Assembly: GCF_014334325.1 (NCBI RefSeq)
Contig: NZ_JACSET010000010.1
Location: 26,533-90,532 of the forward strand
Direction: 5' to 3'
Length of the DNA: 64,000 nt
Source: Treponema sp. Marseille-Q4130
GTDB taxonomy: Bacteria; Spirochaetota; Spirochaetia; Treponematales; Treponemataceae
The notes under the pieces were generated by a model, which ran no database searches, was not told the DNA's origin, and was given only the letters and a program-made list of their open reading frames with translations. Shown here piece by piece: positions 7,850 to 37,759 of this stretch (the first letter of the stretch is position 1; each line of letters starts with the position of its first letter). A program made the translations under genes and the position numbers.

Positions 7850-9424
7850 ATGGAAAACGAAGTACGTGTTCGCTACGCTCCCTCTCCGACGGGGATGCAG
7901 CATATCGGCGGTGTGCGCACCGCGCTGTTCAATTATCTTTTTGCGCGTTCGCAGGGCGGCAAATTTGTTTTGCGCCTCGAAGACACCGACCGCACGCGCT
8001 ACGATGAAAAATTTGTTAAGAATTTGTACGACACGATGGCATGGCTCGGCATCGATTGGGACGAGGGCGGCGATAAAGGCGGTCCTTACGGCCCTTACGT
8101 GCAGAGCGAACGTTTCGATCTCTATAAAAAATATGCCGAAGAACTCGTTGCAAAGGGCGAAGCGTATTACTGTTTTTGCGACGAAGAGCGCCTCGCGCGC
8201 ATCCGAAAAATCCAAACGGAAAATAAAATGGCACCGGGTTACGACCGCCATTGCCGTATGCTGACCTCTGAAGAAGTGCGGGAAAATATCGCTGCGGGAA
8301 AACCGCACGTCATCCGCCTCAAAGTGCCCCTCGAAGGCGAAACGGAATTTCACGATTATCTGCTCGGAAAGATCACGTGGAAAAACGAAGATATCAGCCC
8401 GGATCCCGTTTTGCTCAAAAGCGACGGTTTTCCGACCTACCACTTGGCGAATATCGTCGACGATCACTTTATGCATATTTCTCACGTGATGCGCGCACAG
8501 GAGTGGATACCGTCGACGCCGCTGCACGTACAGATGTACCGCGCTTTCGGCTGGAAGCATCCCGAATTCTGTCACTTGCCCATGGTCAACGGTAAAGACG
8601 GTCAAAAGCTTTCGAAGCGGCACGGCGCGACGAGCGTCGATGAATTCCGTGCGCGCGGTTATCTTCCCGAAGCGATTATCAATTACGTTGCGATGCTCGG
8701 CTGTTCGTACGAAGACGGCAGGGATCTGTATTCGCTTGACGAACTGTGCCGCTTATTTAAAATCGAACATCTCAATAAATCGCCTGCGGTATTCGATTAT
8801 AAAAAACTCGAATGGTATAACGGTCAGTATATCCGCATGCTTTCGGACGAAGCGCTTTACCGCATGACGCTCCCGTTTATCACGGGGACGGGCGATGCCG
8901 CGCTTCCGATTCATTCCGACGGTGAATTGCCGCCTCCGCGCGTGGGTTCGGAATATTCGGGCATCGCGCTCGGAAGCGACGGCGAACCGGTTTGCGTTGA
9001 CGCTTCCATGCAGATGACAAGCGCCGATGTAAAAGCCGCCCTTATGCGCCTCATGCCGCTTATTAAAGAGCGGCTCCACTATTTGACCGACGCCGCGGAG
9101 ATGGTGCGCTTTTTGTTTACCGAACCGGTCGTGCCTCCCGTCGAAGAGATCGTTCCGAAAAAACTCGACGCGGCGAAAACGAAAGAGATATTGCTTCGCG
9201 CGAAAAATTTCGTCGATGCGGCTTTCGCTATGAGCCATGAAGAAGCGGAAAATCTTGCGAGGACGGAAGCGGAAGTGCTCGGCGTAAAACTCGGAGATTT
9301 TATGATGCCCGTGCGCATGGCGGTAACCGGCAGCAGAATAAGTCCTCCGCTTATCGGCTCGATTCTCATCCTCGGAAAAGAGCGGTGTCTTTCGCGGATC
9401 GAAAAGACGCTGGAGAAGTTTTAA
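7850..9424 (+). CDS. gltX: Glutamyl-tRNA synthetase
   Basis: 524 residues. Class I aminoacyl-tRNA synthetase that charges tRNA-Glu (and tRNA-Gln where GlnRS is absent). The N-terminus has YAPSPTGMQHIGG, the family form of HIGH, and the KMSKS equivalent KLSKRHGA is near residue 252. It is longer than the usual 465-490 residues because of a linker of about 40 residues around 345-385 (DAALPIHSDGELPPPR region) between the catalytic and anticodon-binding parts. The start is fixed by the family N-terminus; no SD is seen. A run of nine G follows the stop codon immediately. Confidence 0.97.
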   Translation: MENEVRVRYAPSPTGMQHIGGVRTALFNYLFARSQGGKFVLRLEDTDRTRYDEKFVKNLYDTMAWLGIDWDEGGDKGGPYGPYVQSERFDLYKKYAEELVAKGEAYYCFCDEERLARIRKIQTENKMAPGYDRHCRMLTSEEVRENIAAGKPHVIRLKVPLEGETEFHDYLLGKITWKNEDISPDPVLLKSDGFPTYHLANIVDDHFMHISHVMRAQEWIPSTPLHVQMYRAFGWKHPEFCHLPMVNGKDGQKLSKRHGATSVDEFRARGYLPEAIINYVAMLGCSYEDGRDLYSLDELCRLFKIEHLNKSPAVFDYKKLEWYNGQYIRMLSDEALYRMTLPFITGTGDAALPIHSDGELPPPRVGSEYSGIALGSDGEPVCVDASMQMTSADVKAALMRLMPLIKERLHYLTDAAEMVRFLFTEPVVPPVEEIVPKKLDAAKTKEILLRAKNFVDAAFAMSHEEAENLARTEAEVLGVKLGDFMMPVRMAVTGSRISPPLIGSILILGKERCLSRIEKTLEKF

Positions 9425-11698: not shown

Positions 11699-11947
11699 TT
11701 ACAGCTTTTCGACTTCCTCTTTTGTGAGGCCGGTGGCTTCCGCAATGTTTTCAATTGACAACTTGAGAGTGAGCAAATTCTTTGCCGTTTCCCGTGCTTT
11801 TTGATACGACCCCGCGGCAATACCGTCGCGGCGGCCTTGTAGGAGTCCGTCTCTCCTGCCTTTGCGTATCCCCGCAGCAACGCCCCGTTCAAAGCCGATC
11901 TTTTCACCTGCCATGCGTAAATCATCTTCCCGTATATTTAACGACAT
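11699..11947 (-). CDS. Predicted intragenic C-terminal product of the Rpn gene (RpnS-like)
   Basis: Inside the Rpn gene, AGGAG (11955-11959) lies 7 nt before an in-frame ATG at 11947. Translation from it would give an 82-residue protein consisting of only the C-terminal Gly-rich and helical part, without the nuclease domain. This is the architecture of the intragenic antitoxins described for E. coli Rpn genes. It is a prediction from ribosome-site quality and architecture only. Confidence 0.4.
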
Positions 11948-12565
11948 ATACCAGCTCCTGAACTTTTCGTTCCGTTTCGCTTTTTCGACAAGCTCATCGA
12001 TGTGCTGTGTAAAACCGCTCGTCGCCCGCCTCTCGCAAAGATACTTCAACAAGGCGCTCAATTCAGGCTCATCTTCTTTACCGTAGGCACCCACATTATA
12101 AAACACCTTAACGCTTTTGTCATCAAGAAAAAGCGTACCGTCAGCGGTACAGATATTGCGGAATTCGTAGACAGGCAAACCTCTATCGAAGGGATCCTGC
12201 GTACAGATAAAAATGACATAGCTCTCTTTCAGTTCGGCGTAGCTTTGTCCTCTCAAGAGATTATCGACATCCATAAGGCTTTGGTAATAGCGCGTGCGCT
12301 TGGGAAGAGAGGGCGGAATCGACGTTTGTATTTCTATGTCGAAGATGCGCTCGGGGTCTGAGACATAGACGTCGAGGCGTATACCCTTGCTTTCGTAAAA
12401 GGGTGCTATTGTTTTTTGCAGGGAGGGATATTCTATTTTACCGACTTTGATATGCAAAAGGCGCTCCAATACACCCTTACATATAACTTTGTTTTTCATG
12501 ACCGTGCCGAACATAAAGTCATCGGTAAAGGTGAGTTCTTCGACGGGTTTATGGGTATATTCCAT
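11699..12565 (-). CDS. Rpn-family PD-(D/E)XK nuclease (formerly 'transposase')
   Basis: 288 residues, start at 12565 with GAAGG upstream. The N-terminal nuclease domain shows the PD-(D/E)XK pattern as [10 protein letters not shown] followed by FDIEIQTS (Asp, then Glu-x-Gln). The C-terminal quarter has repeated Gly/Arg-rich heptads ([17 protein letters not shown]) ending in a small helical motif [18 protein letters not shown]. Rpn proteins are recombination-promoting nucleases; in E. coli they were shown to be toxic antiphage proteins held in check by a short protein made from the 3' part of the same gene. A matching internal ribosome site is present here. Fragments of this subfamily occur at 16.4 and 17.4 kb. 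Confidence 0.85.
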
Positions 12566-12900: not shown

Positions 12901-14079
12901 ATGAAAAAGATTTTAGGTGTTGTGCTTGCATCCGCACTCGTCGCGGGCGCATTTGCACAAGTTAAAACGGGGGTCGAATTCGACACAAATCTTACCGTCG
13001 CAGACTGGGCAACCGTTAAAGACGGAGATAACACGTCATCGTATTTGGAGCAGAAACACAATGATGATACCAAAATCGGTGTGACGGCTTCTGATGACAA
13101 TGCAGGTGTTACGGCGGAAATCAAGTTCAACTTGAATAATGTGGGTGTTGCTGGCAAGGATCCTGTCGGTGTGGGTACCGTTTACGGATGGTTCACTGTC
13201 AAGGGTTTTAAAGTCTCCGCCGGTAAATTCAACAGCCGCTGGTCACCCCGTTTAAAGAACGCTGCAGACGACGCGATCAACTTATCGATTCTTGAACCGT
13301 ACAAATACGGCTCAGCAATAAAGGAATTCCAGGATGCGAGTACGCCGCCTAATAAGTATAAAAATCCGGGTTTTGATATCGACAATATGACGAACGGTGC
13401 AAAACTTGCTATGATCGGCGACTATACGTTTGCGATCGGCGAATCGAAGCTCCTCGTAAAGGGTTCTATCTTTGATTCCGATCCTAAATTCTCGCACCTT
13501 AAGAGCGGCTACGCTTTCGAAGCCGGATTCCAGACCAAACTCTTCTGGATCGATGCTGTCGTAAAAGTACCGTATAAAGACACGGTAGCGGCGGGCGCGT
13601 TCTTTTACATGAAGCCTCTGGATATGCTGACTTTCGTCGTGGGCGGTACATTTGCATTTGATAATCGTATTGCAAACACAGATATTAGTATCATCGCTTT
13701 CGATGCACGTGCACGTGTGAAGCCGCTCGATGCGCTTGCGATTACGGTTATGGGTAACTACTCTCTTGCGACTGCAAAACCCTCGTCTGGTGATAAAAGC
13801 TATGTTGACGGTAAATACGCGGCAGTCAATGCCGAATATATGCTGAACGATATGTTTACGATTTTCGGCGAAGTCGGATACTTTGATACTGAAGCAGCAG
13901 TAACGGCTGGTGATTCTTATGCCAACATGAAAGTGCAGGCCGGTACGATCATCAAACCGGTTGAAAAGGTATCAGTTGCTGCAGCGTTGCAGCTCAGACT
14001 CAATGTTGAAGACAAGGTTGGCACGGGTGCTGAACAGGTCGGATTCGGAATTCCTGTTGCATTGCAGATCGCGTTCTAA
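12901..14079 (+). CDS. Outer-membrane beta-barrel protein (treponemal porin-like)
   Basis: 392 residues with a cleavable signal peptide (MKKILGVVLASALVAGAFAQ). The mature part is an alternating pattern of short amphipathic beta strands (for example GWFTVKGFKVSAGKF, TFAIGESKLLVKGSIF, DMFTIFGEVGYF), and the last residues ALQIAF end in Phe, the signal recognised by the BAM complex. It has a near-consensus promoter, a structured leader, an AGGAGG-like SD and a terminator hairpin, so it is probably abundant. It is not obviously the Msp/Tpr family; it could be a porin or a structural outer-membrane protein. Exact family not identified. Confidence 0.8.
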   Translation: MKKILGVVLASALVAGAFAQVKTGVEFDTNLTVADWATVKDGDNTSSYLEQKHNDDTKIGVTASDDNAGVTAEIKFNLNNVGVAGKDPVGVGTVYGWFTVKGFKVSAGKFNSRWSPRLKNAADDAINLSILEPYKYGSAIKEFQDASTPPNKYKNPGFDIDNMTNGAKLAMIGDYTFAIGESKLLVKGSIFDSDPKFSHLKSGYAFEAGFQTKLFWIDAVVKVPYKDTVAAGAFFYMKPLDMLTFVVGGTFAFDNRIANTDISIIAFDARARVKPLDALAITVMGNYSLATAKPSSGDKSYVDGKYAAVNAEYMLNDMFTIFGEVGYFDTEAAVTAGDSYANMKVQAGTIIKPVEKVSVAAALQLRLNVEDKVGTGAEQVGFGIPVALQIAF

Positions 14080-14128
14080 GCTGAACTTCATTTGATGTAA
14101 CCCGTGCTTTTGTACGGGTAAGGTAAAA

Positions 14129-14274
14129 GGGGCTGTCCAAAAACTTCAGTTTTTGAACAGCTTCCTTGATTTTATATGCGATGTTTAAAATTAAGTCCTT
14201 GCAATATAAAGACTTAATTTTAAACTCGACGGGCTGTCGAAAAAGTAACCAACTTTTGAGACAGCCCCTTTTTT
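14129..14274. repeat. MITE-like palindromic element, copy 1; right end also a terminator
   Basis: About 140 bp bounded by terminal inverted repeats GGGGCTGTCC... (14129) and ...GAGACAGCCCC (14258-14268), typical of IS ends, with internal inverted arms (AAATTAAGTC / GACTTAATTT). A second copy in the opposite orientation is at 40615-40736. The stem GGGCTGTC/GACAGCCC plus T6 (14231-14274) can terminate porin transcription on the plus strand. Confidence 0.75.
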
Positions 14275-14543
14275 ATGGTGCCTACGCGTGCGGGGCGAGC
14301 GAGGTATACGTGTTGCACGGAATCAACAACCCCGACGGAAGCGTCGGGGTATTAAACCCTCCGCACGAATAGGTGTGCGCTCGTTTAGAAGCGATAGGCG
14401 GGGCGAGCGGGCAAACGTGTATGCGGCAATTGCCGGAATGCGGGGGCGATGTGGGGCGTGCGCTTGAGAAAAAGCGGGGCAGGGGTGAACTGCGGACTTG
14501 AGCAAGCGAGGTGTGCGTCCCGCGTTTTGCGGAAAGCGCTGCC
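14275..14543. other. Intergenic remnant with an 8-bp hairpin and a repeat family B copy
   Basis: No gene is supported. A perfect CCCCGACG/CGTCGGGG hairpin (14330-14349) lies next to a minus-strand copy of the short dispersed word ATTCGTGCGGAGGGTTTAAT (about 14350-14371), which recurs at 31532 and, diverged, at 28147. The rest is G+C-rich, featureless sequence, possibly eroded Rpn-region DNA. Confidence 0.5.
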
Positions 14544-14813
14544 TTACAGCTTTTCGATTTCCGCTTCGGAGAGGCCGCAGATTTTACAAATATCTTCCAG
14601 CGGATAGTGCATAGCGAGCATGGTTTTTGCCGTTTCAAGCGCCTTTTGATATGAGCCATCGGAAAAGCCTTCCAGTTTTCCCTGTGCGATACCCAGCGAA
14701 AAACCTTTCGCTTCGCCTTGTGCGATACCTTCCTGCAGTGCGATTTCTCTTTCTTCTTCTCGTTGTACTGCGATATCGACGTCGTAATCGTATTCGGCTA
14801 TAAGCATATTCAT
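14544..14813 (-). CDS. Free-standing duplicate of an Rpn C-terminal segment (RpnS-like)
   Basis: 89 residues beginning MNMLIAEYDYDVDIAVQ, nearly identical to the C-terminal part of the Rpn gene directly upstream (14843-15730) but with a 12-residue insertion (EAKGFSLGIAQG) and a different final helix (EDICKICGLSEAEIEKL). It has an SD (AGAGGTG) in the same position as the internal ribosome site of the full-length gene, and alternative starts GTG 14816 or ATG 14807. No nuclease domain is present. It could be a decaying duplicate, or a separate antitoxin that binds Rpn. The intact frame and kept SD favour expression. Confidence 0.6.
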   Translation of the reverse strand: MNMLIAEYDYDVDIAVQREEEREIALQEGIAQGEAKGFSLGIAQGKLEGFSDGSYQKALETAKTMLAMHYPLEDICKICGLSEAEIEKL

Positions 14814-14842
14814 CACCTCTATAAGACTTTTTGCAGAAAGTT

Positions 14843-15067
14843 TCAGCTCTTGATTTCCGCTTCGGAGAGGCCGGTAGCTTGCGCAATGTTTTTAATCGAT
14901 AACCCCATGCCGAGTAAGTTTTTTGCCGTTTCAAGCTTAGCTTGGTATGAGCCATCGGAAAAGCCTTCCAGTTTTCCCTGTGCGATACCCTCCTGCAGTG
15001 CGATTTCCCGTTCTTCTTCCCGCTGTACGGCTATGTCCACATCGTAATCGTATTCGGCTGTAAGCAT
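14843..15067 (-). CDS. Predicted intragenic C-terminal product of the second Rpn gene
   Basis: A near-perfect SD, GGGAGGTG at 15074-15081, sits inside the nuclease gene with ATG at 15073 (spacing short) and 15067 (optimal). The product, MLTAEYDYDVDIAVQ..., would be about 74 residues and equal to the region duplicated as a separate ORF just downstream. A consensus SD at an in-frame ATG by chance is unlikely, and the duplicate copy keeps it. Confidence 0.5.
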   Translation of the reverse strand: MLTAEYDYDVDIAVQREEEREIALQEGIAQGKLEGFSDGSYQAKLETAKNLLGMGLSIKNIAQATGLSEAEIKS

Positions 15068-15730
15068 ATTCATCACCTCCCGCGATTTTCGCTGTAAGTA
15101 TTCCCGTAAGATGTCGTTTTGTATGCACTCTTTGATCGCGTTTTGAAAGCCGTTTTCAGGATCGAGCTTCGTGTGTCTTCGTACGGCGTCTATGAACAGA
15201 GTGTACTCTTTTAACGGTTTACACGTATGCAAGATTTTACTTCCCTTAGTATAATTGATATTCATCACGCTGACAACAAGTTCGAGAGCAGGTCTTTCGG
15301 GTATCGTCATAAAGGCGTCGGAGAGGCGTAACGTTACGTTTTCCAGATAGTCATCTTCGCCGTTATAGAACACGTAGAACTCAGGCGTAGGGATTTTTTT
15401 CAGCCTACGGAGATAACGATCGCGTGGGTTTTCGATGCGTTCGTAAAGCCGCGCCGCATATTGCAAAAAGCGCAGCGGCATGTTTTCGTTTACCGTAGAC
15501 TGGTGCTCGATCAATAGGATGATTTTACCGTCGATGAGGCAGGCCACGTCGTTGCGAAAGGCCATGTACATCACCTGTTCGAGCCGAAGCGGTTCGAGAT
15601 TGGTCGATGCATCGAGTTCTGTCCCATGCAATGCGTTGTAGAGGGCGAGGAAGTTCGCTTTTGCGTTTTTGTCTTCGCCGAAAAAATCGACGAAAACCGA
15701 ATCTTTATACCGACGATTATGTTTTGCCAT
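14843..15730 (-). CDS. Rpn-family PD-(D/E)XK nuclease, second subfamily
   Basis: 295 residues; start at 15730 (MAKHNRRYKD) with AGAGG upstream. The nuclease core is seen as NDVACLIDGKIILLIEHQST (Asp ... Glu-x-Gln), typical of the Rpn/YhgA group. The C-terminus has the short Gln/Glu/Gly repeats (REEEREIALQEGIAQGKLEG) followed by a small helical end, as in the other Rpn of this window, though the N-terminal domains are only distantly related. Inside, GGGAGGTG (15074-15081) precedes ATG codons at 15073 and 15067, so a 74-76 residue C-terminal product is predicted. The leader carries the TGCAAAAG...AGAGG element shared with other genes. Confidence 0.85.
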   Translation of the reverse strand: MAKHNRRYKDSVFVDFFGEDKNAKANFLALYNALHGTELDASTNLEPLRLEQVMYMAFRNDVACLIDGKIILLIEHQSTVNENMPLRFLQYAARLYERIENPRDRYLRRLKKIPTPEFYVFYNGEDDYLENVTLRLSDAFMTIPERPALELVVSVMNINYTKGSKILHTCKPLKEYTLFIDAVRRHTKLDPENGFQNAIKECIQNDILREYLQRKSREVMNMLTAEYDYDVDIAVQREEEREIALQEGIAQGKLEGFSDGSYQAKLETAKNLLGMGLSIKNIAQATGLSEAEIKS

Positions 15731-16392
15731 AAGACCTCTCAAAAAACTTTTGCAGGAAGTTGTAACTTCCGAAAAAGTTTTTTCTGTGCGCGCGAGCGCA
15801 CATGTTCAATAGTTGAGTTTGTAACGCAACATCGAGATAAGAACGCTGCGATTTCGAGCAATGCGCAGAAATCGCGAGTGTCTCCTACAAAAGAAAAACG
15901 CTCGGCGTTTTTCGTCTCCGGACTTTAGCGGAGGCGCTATTTCAGCCGATGCTTTTTATCGACCTCCGGGATAACCGCACCGGAAATGGGTACTTAGAAA
16001 AGAAGCGCATACTTACATAAAAAAGGCGGAACGCGAGGCAGCGGAACTGCCGCCGAGCCGCTTAGACCGATGGCAAGCAATCTCTTTGTAAAAAGAGATT
16101 GCGCAGTCCGATTCCGATTACGGTCTGCCGCGGCACTTGCAACGAGCGTGGAGCGCGAAGTTCCCCGCGCAAACGGCAGGGCTGCTGCCGGGAGTGCAGC
16201 CGATTTTTTATGTTATACGCTATTTTTTAGGAATACAATTTTCGGTGCGGTTATTCTGATAATACTTCACTAGATATATATCGCGGAAATGTTGCGATTT
16301 CGGAGTTTTTTTGAAGCAATTTTTGGAAAATATCTGCGGAACCGCCGTTCGTGATAGTTCTGTTTATTTTTACAAATGAAAACTCGCGGATA
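15731..16392. other. Intergenic region: leader element, hairpin repeats, no gene
   Basis: 15733-15795 holds the Rpn leader, with a long stem (AAAAACTTTT/AAAAGTTTT enclosing GGAAGTT/AACTTCC) and a GTGCGCTCGCGCGCAC hairpin. Around 15925-15950 is a fragment of the repeat A loop (GCGCTATTTCAGC). 16130-16165 shares GAAGTTCCCCGCGCAA with 21971. No ORF with a start signal or recognisable product is present. Confidence 0.6.
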
Positions 16393-32876: not shown

Positions 32877-35666
32877 TCAGTAAGGGCAATACAATTGCTC
32901 AAAGGATTTATTAAATCTCCGTTTCATTTCTATGTCTTCGGTATTAAAAAACGGTAAACCAATTAACACATAAGAACTGTTCCGTTCTATAACGGCATGC
33001 TCTTTTCCGTAGCGTTTAGCGATCTCTTCCAGAAAATCTTGTTTCCAACCGTCGTTGTCATCTCCCGCAAGAAACCTGCCTTTCGGTTCGATAAAGACCT
33101 GATAATATGCATTGGGATTACCGGTTTTTCCGTGCAGAAATAATAAAAAATCCGGTTGAAAACCGCGGCCGGTATCAAAGTCAAAAATCTTATATACTTC
33201 TTCATTTCGGAGCAACTGAAAAGAATCGTAATTCGCAAGTAAATTTGATTTTCTGTCTTTTATAAATTGAATTAAGTTGCGTTCTTCGCTTGTACCCCAA
33301 AATGCATCAAGTGCATACCAATCTGCGGTTTGTAATTCTTTCTCCAATGTTTTGTTTTCCTGTGTTTCCGATGCTTGTTCATCGATAAAAATGAGTTTTT
33401 CTTTAGTAAAACATACCTTCCCTTTTTGCTGATTGAATGAAAACATATCCGAAAATTTTACTAATCGGAAATCAGTTCCTTTATATGGATTATCAAATTT
33501 TTCCAATTTACTTTGCAGATTAGTAAAAAAATTTTCACACATTTCCAGCATTTTTTTATTCGGAATATTCTCATATTTGTCTGTATCATGCGTGAGCATA
33601 ATTCTTACATCTTTTATAAAATCAAAAAACTCTTCCATACTCTGAACATTAAATCGTCGGAGTATATTTTCAAAACTATAGTAGGAAGCGGCATTTGCAT
33701 TAAGGCGATGAATGGCTTTATATTTTATATGAATCGGAATATCGAAAAAAATTAATGATTTTGTATTGAAGTGCCCGCTTGCAACTGCGAGATATGCATC
33801 GTCTTTTTGAAAATCAACTGTCCGTATTTCAGAATACGGATTTGTAGTGATTCTATACTCAAACGGCGGAAGATTTTGAAAATCATCCGGCAGCTTTTTT
33901 AATCTGCGCTCGGAGTTTTCTATGCGGTCATTCACAAATAAATACATTCCGTTCAGCATTTGTTGTTGCTTCGGTTTTACAGGAAATATTTTTTGTGTTC
34001 GTTTTTCCGTCATCAATCCTTTATTTTTAAGCTCATTCGATAACTCATTGATATAGCGATGATCTTCGTCGGAATGAAAATAGAATTCTTCCAAAATACG
34101 CAGCTCATTTCGGATATCATCATCGAACTTACGGCGGCTAACCGGCATATCGTTATAGGCAAACGGATAATAACGAACGCCGCGACCTATCAGCTGAACT
34201 TCACTTGTTGTGCTTGTACCGGCTTTATGTTTTTTTGTATCCGTATCGCGTCCCGTATACAATCGAACAATGTCGTATAGGTTCAGTACATCCCAGCCTT
34301 CGGTAAGACGTTGTACAGTAAAAATTGCTCTAATATGATTATCATAATCTTCAAGACTGTTTAAAAGCCGGTCAATTTCGGAATCGGTTTTTTCTTTTTT
34401 GGTTTTATTTGTCTTACTGTTCGTGATGATGATAGTACGCTCTTGAAAATTTTCACGGATATAATCAACAATATTTTCAAAAGAATATTCATCCTCTTTT
34501 AGATATACCAAAATCCGCTCAAAGATATTGCCGTCCACGGTATATAATGACGGAATTGAATCATCAGCCGGTATAGTTATTTTTGAAAGATTATGAATAA
34601 AATTAAAGTCGGAAGCTGTTACGGATTTGCATAATGCAATAAACTTTCCGCAATCTGCTTTTGAATCTTCAATTGTTTTGCTTCTAAAAAGAATAACTGG
34701 TTTAAAATTCGGAATTCCCGCTTTTAGCGCAATGCGATAACGGTACCAATGTAACAGCAATGCCTGTAAAATTCTTTCTTTTAATGTAAGATTGGATCGA
34801 ACAAGGCGGATATGTTTTGTACAACCGGCTTCTACGAAGTCTTTCAATTCAAATTTGATAATTATTTTATCTTCATACTTTTGTAAAACTTCAGGCGTAT
34901 TCGGAACCGTTGCAGTAAATTCCAAAAGCGCGTTATTATTTTTGTTTTGATTTTTACCGTCTTTGTTTAAAATACAATGACAAACGGTATGTTCCCAAGA
35001 ACGTTCAATATCTTCTTCTTTCGCAGAATCTTTTAATTCTCCGATAAAAGAAATATCATCTGAAAGAGTGGTTTGTTTTTTCTTTATCGTACTTGCATTT
35101 AAGTGATGCGCTTCATCCCCGAACAGAATAATATCACGTTTTTGCAAGTCCGAAAGTAATACGGAGTTTTCACTTTCTTTATAAATATCATTATGCAGTT
35201 TTTGAATTGTCGTAAATTTTATCTGTATATCATCGCAGAAATCCGAAAACATATCGACTTCTCGAAATACAACCCGTCTGCAGTCAATGACGACATTTTC
35301 TTTGAATAAGTATTTAGTATGCTTTGTGTCGATAAAGTTTGCCTGTGTCTTTCCGAGAATGGCATTTTGATTGACAAAAAATATGAAATTCCTATACCCT
35401 TGTTTATAATAATATAAAATCAATGCAGCCATAACGAGCGTCTTACCGCTTCCAGTAGCCATATTGAACATAAGATGATTCGGCAAAAGCATTTCACTTT
35501 TTTTAAGCTGTTTTGAACGCTGTTTTTCATTGATGAGAAAATTTTCCAAAGCTGTGCGTTGCCAGTCATATAGCGGATATTTTAAGTTATCCGTAATGTA
35601 TGAAGGAATTGCATAATCGCTTTCATCGAGAATTTCTTTTTGAATTTTAATTTTATCGACTAGCAT
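32877..35666 (-). CDS. res: Type III restriction enzyme, Res subunit
   Basis: 929 residues. Superfamily 2 helicase with Walker A MATGSGKTLV, DEAH box GDEAHHLN, motif VI-like LIGRGVRYYP, then a C-terminal PD-(D/E)XK nuclease (GFQPDFLLF ... VFIEPKGRFL). It cleaves unmodified phage DNA together with Mod, after ATP-driven communication between sites. The ATG overlaps the mod stop by 1 bp (TAATG). Base composition is clearly more A+T-rich than the flanks, pointing to acquisition. No truncation is seen. Confidence 0.95.
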   Translation of the reverse strand: MLVDKIKIQKEILDESDYAIPSYITDNLKYPLYDWQRTALENFLINEKQRSKQLKKSEMLLPNHLMFNMATGSGKTLVMAALILYYYKQGYRNFIFFVNQNAILGKTQANFIDTKHTKYLFKENVVIDCRRVVFREVDMFSDFCDDIQIKFTTIQKLHNDIYKESENSVLLSDLQKRDIILFGDEAHHLNASTIKKKQTTLSDDISFIGELKDSAKEEDIERSWEHTVCHCILNKDGKNQNKNNNALLEFTATVPNTPEVLQKYEDKIIIKFELKDFVEAGCTKHIRLVRSNLTLKERILQALLLHWYRYRIALKAGIPNFKPVILFRSKTIEDSKADCGKFIALCKSVTASDFNFIHNLSKITIPADDSIPSLYTVDGNIFERILVYLKEDEYSFENIVDYIRENFQERTIIITNSKTNKTKKEKTDSEIDRLLNSLEDYDNHIRAIFTVQRLTEGWDVLNLYDIVRLYTGRDTDTKKHKAGTSTTSEVQLIGRGVRYYPFAYNDMPVSRRKFDDDIRNELRILEEFYFHSDEDHRYINELSNELKNKGLMTEKRTQKIFPVKPKQQQMLNGMYLFVNDRIENSERRLKKLPDDFQNLPPFEYRITTNPYSEIRTVDFQKDDAYLAVASGHFNTKSLIFFDIPIHIKYKAIHRLNANAASYYSFENILRRFNVQSMEEFFDFIKDVRIMLTHDTDKYENIPNKKMLEMCENFFTNLQSKLEKFDNPYKGTDFRLVKFSDMFSFNQQKGKVCFTKEKLIFIDEQASETQENKTLEKELQTADWYALDAFWGTSEERNLIQFIKDRKSNLLANYDSFQLLRNEEVYKIFDFDTGRGFQPDFLLFLHGKTGNPNAYYQVFIEPKGRFLAGDDNDGWKQDFLEEIAKRYGKEHAVIERNSSYVLIGLPFFNTEDIEMKRRFNKSFEQLYCPY

Positions 35667-37759
35667 TACTTATTTCCCTCATCATTACCACGTAGCCGGT
35701 AAAAATCTTCCGTAATTGCAACGTCGTTCATGCCGAGTCCAGAGTTATCGTCGTGCCGGTCGTCCGCATTAATGTAGAGCTGATTTAAATCGAGCATACG
35801 GCAAAATATCTCTTTTTGTTCTTTCAATGTGAGCGATTGAAAACGATCGGTTTTTACTTCTTCATGAAATTTCTTTATACGGACGTTGTAGTGTAAAAAA
35901 TATTTGTTGCGCAGTTCGTCGAATATGGAAATAAGCTCTTCAAGATTTTTACAAGCGGAAATAAGCCGTACCGCCTGTTCGTTTTTTTGGGCAAGCTCCA
36001 TGTAAACAAAAGAACCGCCGCCGTGCCAGTTCTCAAGTTTAGAGATTCCGCCCTGTTCACCCTTGATGACTTTTTTAAGCCGCTCTATCGTAACCGTATC
36101 GATATAATCCATTTGCTCTACGCCGATATATTGTCGATTCATTTTATGCGCAACGGCAGCAGTCGTACCGGATCCGAGATGGTAGTCGAGAACGATATCG
36201 TTTTGATCGGTCGTAGTATAAGATAATAATTCAAAAATAAGCCCCTCCGGTTTTGAATAGTTAAATGGTACTTTTCCAAAAAGTTGTTTCATGTGTTTGT
36301 TTGATTGAGTATTTGAATATTTTTCTATAATTCCGGTTGGCTGAATCATTCTTTTTTTTATGTTTCCATTTTCATCACAATTCAAATATTGTTTTGTATA
36401 AACATTTCCATTTGAAAAAACAATAAAATCATTTTCCAATCCCCAGAGGTATTTATCTTTACTCCACCTCCATCCCCAATCTTTAATACCGGCGCCTCCA
36501 TTTTGCCTATCCTTCCACTTTTCTTTATCACCGCCGGCATAATAAATCTTACCTTCAAATTCAATAGGATAGTCAAGACTCTTTACCCACCCTAAACTGC
36601 CACTGTCTAATTTTATTAATTGATATTTTCCCCGTGTTTCAACATACTGATCTTCAAGTTTGTATCTATCGATATCTTCGATATCTTTTGGATTAATAAC
36701 GGCATATTTTTTATTTTTAGCAAAGCATAATATATATTCGTGTTTTTGCCTAAAATGCGTGCTATCACTTTTTCCGCCACCTTCTTTATTAAGCCATACT
36801 AAAGTTGTCAAAGAATTTTCATAACCGAATACCTCACTCATCAAAACGTGTAATTTTGAAAATTCATTATTATCTATACTTATAAAGATTATGCCGTCCT
36901 CTTTCAGTAACTCCCGTGCAATTTCAAGCCGGTTTTTCATAAAGGTGAGCCAACTTGAATGATTAAAATTATCGTTGTACGCAAAACTGTCTTTTCCCGT
37001 ATTGTACGGCGGATCTATGTAAATGAGCTTTACCTTGCCTGCAAATTCTTCTTTAAGCGAATGAAGCGCAAGTAAATTATTTCCTTTGATAATCAAATTA
37101 TCGGTGATGGTATCTTCCGGAAGCCCACGTTTTTTGTTCAGCTCCGCATCACGGTTTAATTTTTTACAAAGAGAAGATTTTCCCGATTCATAACGCTTTG
37201 CGTTGCAAAATGCTTTCGGGGAAAACAAACTGTCTATTTCATCGCGGGCGAGTACCTCATTGTAAAACACCTCTCGACGTTTGCTCTTTTTTTTCGTATA
37301 TTGCTGCTCTTTGTCATCATATTCAAAATAGGTATCCAAACCGTCTTCTTTACGCTGACCGCCTTCCAGTACGCAATCTTTGAACGGAAAATTCAAAACA
37401 ACTTCGCTCCGGTCAATCAATGGAATGTCTCCCATATACAAGCCGATTTTTTGTCCGAGGTATTTTGAATATGAATTGCAGGCAGAAGAATATTCTAAAA
37501 ATTCTTTAAATTTCGCTGTATTAAAAATGAAACTGTCCAAAACCGGAGTAAAAAAAGCTTTTTTTACGGTAGGATTTTTGAGCAAGGGGGCGAGCAGTTT
37601 TATGTCGCCGCGTTCTGCACAATCCTTTATCACATTAATTTTCAATTTCGGTTTTTGTTTTTTATCGACAGCCGGTTCTACAAAATCAGGCACTGTGGCA
37701 AGTACGGTTTCAATATGTTGTTTAAGCGAATTTGTTTCAGGTGTTTCGGTATACGGCAT
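35666..37759 (-). CDS. mod: Type III DNA methyltransferase, Mod subunit (N6-adenine)
   Basis: 697 residues. Beta-class order: catalytic motif IV (YIDPPYNTGKDSF) near residue 247 precedes the AdoMet motif I (YHLGSGTTAAVAHKMNRQYIGVE) near 560, with a target-recognition region between. It methylates adenine in an asymmetric site and gives Res its specificity. SD GGAG lies 6 nt before ATG 37759. Unlike many pathogen Mod genes, I see no simple-sequence repeat that would make it phase-variable. A+T-rich like res. Divergent from the HTH controller gene, with mirrored operators between them. Confidence 0.95.
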   Translation of the reverse strand: MPYTETPETNSLKQHIETVLATVPDFVEPAVDKKQKPKLKINVIKDCAERGDIKLLAPLLKNPTVKKAFFTPVLDSFIFNTAKFKEFLEYSSACNSYSKYLGQKIGLYMGDIPLIDRSEVVLNFPFKDCVLEGGQRKEDGLDTYFEYDDKEQQYTKKKSKRREVFYNEVLARDEIDSLFSPKAFCNAKRYESGKSSLCKKLNRDAELNKKRGLPEDTITDNLIIKGNNLLALHSLKEEFAGKVKLIYIDPPYNTGKDSFAYNDNFNHSSWLTFMKNRLEIARELLKEDGIIFISIDNNEFSKLHVLMSEVFGYENSLTTLVWLNKEGGGKSDSTHFRQKHEYILCFAKNKKYAVINPKDIEDIDRYKLEDQYVETRGKYQLIKLDSGSLGWVKSLDYPIEFEGKIYYAGGDKEKWKDRQNGGAGIKDWGWRWSKDKYLWGLENDFIVFSNGNVYTKQYLNCDENGNIKKRMIQPTGIIEKYSNTQSNKHMKQLFGKVPFNYSKPEGLIFELLSYTTTDQNDIVLDYHLGSGTTAAVAHKMNRQYIGVEQMDYIDTVTIERLKKVIKGEQGGISKLENWHGGGSFVYMELAQKNEQAVRLISACKNLEELISIFDELRNKYFLHYNVRIKKFHEEVKTDRFQSLTLKEQKEIFCRMLDLNQLYINADDRHDDNSGLGMNDVAITEDFYRLRGNDEGNK

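Follow-up and report, generated by a model that had tools for sequence, protein, structure and literature searches.

The locus described here lies on the minus strand of a 64,000-nucleotide stretch of DNA from Treponema sp. Marseille-Q4130 (the whole stretch analysed, called the window below). It holds a full-length Rpn gene with a putative antitoxin encoded within its 3′ end and, directly downstream, a short gene resembling that 3′ end. The following features were assigned (positions in the window):

15735..15842, minus strand: TD-1-like RNA leader of the full-length gene (RF03155, 44.3 bits, E 2e-5; E 6.1e-6 genome-wide)
15730-14843, minus strand: full-length Rpn gene (RpnL), 295 amino acids (TIGR01784 and PF04754 above cut-offs)
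15067..15080, minus strand: internal Shine-Dalgarno (SD) sequence GGGAGGTG and start codons ATG 15073 and ATG 15067 of the predicted embedded RpnS (GGAGG/ATG conserved in representatives)
14843..15067, minus strand: predicted embedded RpnS segment, 74 amino acids from ATG 15067
14815..14842, minus strand: intergenic 28 nt similar to a TD-1 leader 3′ end, in which the free copy has its SD (L129 TD-1 end: 24 of 28 positions identical)
14813-14544, minus strand: predicted free-standing RpnS gene, 89 amino acids, or 87 from the second ATG (alignment to the embedded copy; match to RpnA-S 7TH0)
14695..14730, minus strand: 36-bp insertion of the free copy, absent from the embedded one, 12 residues or three 4-residue repeats (alignment columns 111-146)
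14638..14747, minus strand: 110 nt of the free copy, mainly repeat array, shared unchanged with the single rpn gene of the sister subspecies, L062 (alignment)
14398..14543, no strand assigned: 3′ flank of the free copy, common to the sister's single rpn gene (alignment)

The long protein belongs to the Rpn/Transposase_31 nuclease family, as an earlier note on this DNA had proposed. It scored 68.2 bits against TIGR01784 (curated cut-off 52.1) and 29.6 bits against PF04754 (curated cut-off 21); PF12784 (PDDEXK_2) stayed at 20.1 bits, below its cut-off of 27.4. The ND..EHQ stretch of Rpn long proteins is conserved (alignment A2) and would contain the catalytic residues of a putative PD-(D/E)XK nuclease fold. 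A Foldseek search of the PDB with the AlphaFold model of the long protein, a weak model (pLDDT 67, pTM 0.61), gave no match at E <= 0.001. The models of both the long and the short protein (pLDDT 67 and 60.5) were set aside as evidence, their key parts being too poor. PADLOC-DB (2023) contained zero matches to the long protein and a single weak match to the short one, a putative invertase (E 1.8e-4). Among the named genomes, the Treponema socranskii subspecies are the closest relatives, followed by T. lecithinolyticum and T. parvum. The window also carries a second, divergent Rpn-family gene on the same strand 2 kb away (11699-12565; TIGR01784, 107.5 bits) and a type III restriction-modification pair inside a low-GC stretch (32877-37759).

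Initiation at the in-frame ATG codons 15073 and 15067 behind GGGAGGTG would give products of 76 or 74 amino acids, in line with the C-terminal protein of about 75 residues predicted previously from the same, correctly placed codons. Codons at the C-terminal boundary were compared across loci taken from matches in 25 of the 39 genomes searched and from named genomes. Clustering of 70 full ORFs at 80% identity in the toxin part yielded 37 representatives alignable at the boundary, with L049 and L106 excluded. GGAGG lies within three codons before the start in 25 of the 37, against 2.4 expected from codon use for the same amino acids (P 2.7e-25, a statistic that ignores kinship), and an ATG occupies the start position in 34 of 37. 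At other places in the same genes GGAGG occurs 25 times per 34,083 nt. Conservation so far above codon chance supports an internal translation start, which we regard as well supported for the long Rpn gene. Internal starts in rpn are reported by Zhong et al. (2023; PMC10327210) from experiments in E. coli and with one C. difficile gene. A candidate internal promoter was dropped, as the one sigma-70-like site (15276-15248) compares with an average of 1.7 in shuffled sequences.

The separate ORF of 89 codons that had been pointed out downstream is indeed present, 29 bp separating the stop of the long gene from its start. Its DNA similarity to the embedded copy begins at GAGGTGATGAATATG, i.e. at the SD sequence, and runs to the end. 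Thus, the SD reported as retained is held in position, but its letters differ (AGAGGTG in the free copy, GGGAGGTG inside the long gene). Nor is the ORF the exact copy it was described as: its first 18 codons differ from those starting at ATG 15067 by seven synonymous and one nonsynonymous change, it carries the 36-bp insertion, and its tail has diverged from the end of the embedded copy. The first ~25 residues are identical save one. A change of specificity through the 12 extra residues, which form additional repeats, is plausible.

In a phmmer search of the PDB with the short protein, the crystal structure of RpnA-S (7TH0) was the sole sequence match at E <= 10 (E 0.0022); TIGR01784 matched it with its C-terminal part only, under the cut-off (31.6 bits, E 1.4e-7). 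The resemblance of the short ORF to RpnS is well beyond chance because the alignment is full-length and 7TH0 is the only PDB match. The RpnS-like segments (S) carry 4-residue repeats in helix 1 and measure 55, 63, 67, 71, 75, 79 or 87 residues in 19 of 21 cases, i.e. steps of four; both exceptions, the embedded segment of the window (74) and C7 (88), deviate at the very end. The locus therefore resembles the intragenic RpnL/RpnS system (RpnA-E, RpnP2) in family, in an internal SD and start at the boundary of a variable C-terminal domain, in 4-residue repeats early in S and in the match to RpnA-S. It differs in having a second S gene with another repeat number, and its activity is a prediction.

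TD-1-like leaders

The leader of the long gene matches RF03155 over model positions 1-120, yet scores below the gathering cut-off of 64.5 bits, hence "TD-1-like". With 150 of 358 candidates scored, the genome of the window has at least 73 matches to RF03155 at E <= 0.01, and six of these pass the cut-off; none were found in 14 control genomes. The 28 nt between the two genes scored 36 against a TD-1 end, and the maximum over 1000 shuffles was 28. Free-standing rpnS has a TD-1-like leader before it at C5, C10, C16 (where the S frame contains a stop) and L071 of T. socranskii subsp. paredis as well. At C5 and C10 of genome G000 (L114 and L115), the toxin frame stops at the internal SD and is followed by a TD-1-like leader and then an open rpnS; judged by its sequence, this layout is a split form of the overlapping gene. 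An origin of free copies by deletion between two SD sequences was considered and is superseded, as the leader is a TD-1-like repeat found genome-wide.

Some properties of these leaders are recorded in their own right. Across G000 they sit directly before the SD of many unrelated genes, and base changes in their 3′ hairpin compensate each other (GGAAGTT/AACTTCC, GGATGTT/AACATCC, GAAAGTT/AACTTTC). Upstream of many TD-1 leaders (L113-L142, L186-L215) lies a hairpin that starts with GGAGG, resembling an SD, and a brief frame reading (M or T)IKSAV-stop or similar; the frame was counted in 23 of 30 copies with a pattern set after examples had been seen. Its first codon is often ACG, so that its status as a leader peptide is uncertain.

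Mosaic structure and repeat mismatch in Treponema

In T. socranskii subsp. socranskii, here called the sister (L062, genome G040), the same locus holds a single rpn gene that lacks the first ~47 residues. Near the boundary this gene resembles the long gene of the window and then runs into the 110 nt of the free copy (14747-14638). Its tail is unlike that of the free copy, whose flank is matched again past the stop; further along, a neighbouring gene is similar to window positions 13382-14128 (69% identical). Such a state could result from the loss, in one step, of the DNA between two copies or from an insertion by which a resident S was displaced downstream, and because the sister toxin lacks its first ~47 residues and the tails differ, L062 is compatible with change in both directions between one and two genes. 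Elsewhere, in genome G001, the last 36 residues are the same in the free L056 copy and the embedded L073 copy, which points to exchange between loci. Taken from sequence comparison, the arrangement looks like cassette exchange that could run to the one-gene state as well.

These data bear on the idea that the antitoxin portion had been copied out of the neighbouring gene to become a gene of its own. A free-standing RpnS is there, but it is not clearly the neighbour's copy, because 110 nt of its array match the array of L062 exactly and its first 18 codons are nearest to those of C2_full (seven differences, all synonymous, compared with eight to its own neighbour). Simple in-place duplication is weakened by the sister mosaic and slightly by this codon comparison. 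At C5, C10, C7, L071 and L062 the toxin is broken, missing or shortened and the S frame open. The notion that the antitoxin outlasts decay of the toxin was nevertheless rejected, given the stop in the S frame of C16 and the longer survival by chance of a short frame. Close to the locus, positions 14125-14274 belong to an interspersed repeat of ~140 bp, of which T. socranskii subsp. paredis has at least 18 copies at 89-97% identity; the ends of the repeat, GGGGCTGTC/GACAGCCCC, are inverted and resemble those of a small mobile repeat.

The earlier note had suggested a search of related genomes for Rpn genes followed by C-terminal-only ORFs, and such ORFs do recur. Fifty-eight distinct full-length Rpn genes had 400 bp or more of sequence downstream; 13 of them are followed within 400 bp on the same strand by a C-terminal-type ORF, 11 after two longer proteins (286 and 116 amino acids) are dropped; the loci were drawn from better matches, so that the rate is biased. 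Two such ORFs stand in tandem at L038 and L095. The repeat region was compared in 15 pairs of a free and an embedded copy, not every pair being independent; 14 pairs come from Treponema and its order, and the remaining one, with the free copy upstream, from a record labelled Marvinbryantia metagenome bin (L069). Ten pairs differ clearly, two are equal (L033, L056) and three are unclear cases (L038b, L095a, L095b), in which length differences fall in the tail or are not placeable. The clear differences amount to +12 residues in the window and at L092, +4 at L055, −4 at L076, −8 at C13 and L069, −12 at L034 and L096, and −16 at L073; L038a is the tenth clear case. The comparison leaves aside L047, where the toxin part stops short of S, and one partial copy in L069, the longer of the two there.

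In RpnC, one added 4-residue repeat in RpnC-S abolished its effect on the toxin and matched repeats restored it, a rule demonstrated by Zhong et al. (PMC10327210) for RpnC alone. Other Rpn pairs may tolerate a mismatch. Under this rule, frequent mismatch speaks against a free RpnS that merely serves its neighbour as antitoxin. The pooled nonsynonymous-to-synonymous ratio is 0.107 among nine embedded copies, 0.074 between six free and the nine embedded copies and 0.055 among the free ones, in pools that leave aside T. lecithinolyticum, T. parvum, L062, L066, L068 and L070. The synonymous-only changes in the first 18 codons of the window's free copy speak for constraint, but could date from before its free state.

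The parallel in E. coli

Intragenic RpnS antitoxins are described by Zhong et al. 2023 (PMC10327210), who also report rpnS genes standing alone behind rpn in E. coli. Hence, the passage from overlapping genes to two separate ones that had been put forward for the window is not new. In rpnE-ypaA, and in rpnC with its downstream rpnCS, an rpn gene with an internal start is followed by a free RpnS ORF on the same strand, as in the window, where the downstream copy likewise begins at the SD (GAGGTG). The ypaA copy of K-12 also begins at the SD (AAAAGGAGAGATTAATG in both places), contains extra repeat sequence and has a diverged end, its single additional 4-residue repeat (4 residues) comparing with 12 extra residues in the window. 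The window differs in belonging to another phylum, in the TD-1-like leader end within its gap and in being mosaic with a sister subspecies.

The segment was located at 8486 places in 5371 genomes. A sample of 60 rows spread across the 5371 E. coli records contained 35 rows with two segment places and 25 with one, which we took as the two-gene and one-gene states. Twenty-three strains chosen for varied lengths were examined, 18 of the former and five of the latter state. The repeat number differs between free and embedded copy in all 17 measured two-gene strains of the 18, representing 10 distinct combinations; L233 was omitted, the anchor motif being absent from its second ORF, and the free ORF of L223 exceeds the fetched stretch beyond the anchor. 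Shuffling of the 10 distinct combinations led to 0.80 expected matches against none observed (P 0.42). Free and embedded repeat numbers thus behave as independent, matching being neither kept nor avoided. We therefore rejected avoidance of equal repeat numbers, and mismatch as a selected trait lacks support.

All five one-gene strains examined, including BL21 and ATCC 25922, carry the ypaA-type (distal) tail on rpnE. Like the sister L062, in which one gene unites toxin-side DNA of the window's kind with the array and 3′ flank of the free copy, these tails do not fit a one-way step to two genes. Loss of rpnS by deletion, or its fusion to the N-terminal domain, is mentioned by Zhong et al. (PMC10327210), and the preprint text, to the extent covered here, holds no discussion of the mismatch or of the tail type of one-gene strains. 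A search of the open-licence PMC literature found no paper on free-standing rpnS in Treponema or with TD-1. In all 18 two-gene E. coli records (L185, L216-L219, L223-L234, L237) the free rpnS is annotated as a pseudogene or as incomplete with its N-terminus missing, so that the free-standing gene is easily overlooked. RefSeq labels RpnE of K-12 as inactive.

Possible role of the free-standing RpnS

Both ORFs and the internal SD and start can be read directly in the DNA; translation and toxicity are presumed. The last ~74 residues of the RpnL toxin would also be made separately from the internal start and serve as its matched antitoxin, and the downstream gene, probably on the same transcript, would supply a second, free-standing RpnS. 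On balance, we lean towards an RpnS of different specificity that exchanges by recombination with the toxin's own RpnS. The repeat mismatch is likewise visible in the sequence: the predicted dimer-forming helix of the free RpnS is three repeats longer and its end is different, which most likely makes it a poor neutraliser of the neighbouring RpnL, cross-inhibition being presumably absent. In this reading it would be a spare antitoxin cassette of another specificity. If the near-identical starts of the two RpnS segments recombined, the intervening stretch would be deleted and the spare fused to the toxin, and such a fusion would change toxin and embedded antitoxin together. The one-gene state of the sister and the E. 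coli parallel are plain observations; the direction and the selective value of the exchange are presumed.

A second cognate antitoxin, adding to the RpnS available against the toxin next to it, is what two genes adjoining on one strand 29 bp apart, with ~25 initial residues identical but one, would suggest, and of the 15 comparisons two show equal lengths and three are unclear. We nevertheless consider this unlikely in view of the clear repeat-region differences in the 10 other comparisons and in 17 of 17 measured E. coli strains, the differing end helices and, from Zhong et al. (PMC10327210), the abolition of inhibition by an extra repeat in RpnC.

Somewhat less probable again is that recombination at a fast-changing locus has left the ORF behind without a function. 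Against the mosaic sequence, the rearrangement and the pseudogene or incomplete annotation of the free copy in 18 of 18 two-gene E. coli strains stand a preserved SD, start and frame, almost exclusively synonymous changes in the first 18 codons and S lengths that step by four residues; moreover, the E. coli counterpart ypaA yields detectable tagged protein according to Zhong et al. (PMC10327210).

That the Rpn gene is transposase-like and the downstream ORF a truncated remnant without a toxin-antitoxin role is very improbable: it accords with the family names in Pfam and NCBIfam (putative transposase), but the internal start is conserved far past codon chance, and Zhong et al. (PMC10327210) oppose transposition and report toxin-antitoxin behaviour.

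Returning to the free ORF as an exchanging RpnS of different specificity, a broader proposal is possible, though we hold it as doubtful. Free rpnS genes might form a store of mismatched specificities that permits a one-step C-terminal swap without an antitoxin gap; meanwhile, they might protect against sibling RpnL types, like displaced orphan immunity modules, with SD-bearing TD-1-like leaders helping free S segments.

In summary, the locus comprises an RpnL/RpnS gene and a second, free-standing RpnS, an assignment well supported by sequence comparison and a layout already known from E. coli. The rpnE-ypaA arrangement of E. coli thus recurs in Treponema and its order. That the two antitoxins so often differ in repeat number is not predicted by a simple backup-antitoxin model and suggests a swappable spare instead. 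Together with the signs of exchange, this mismatch makes the spare-cassette reading worth testing.
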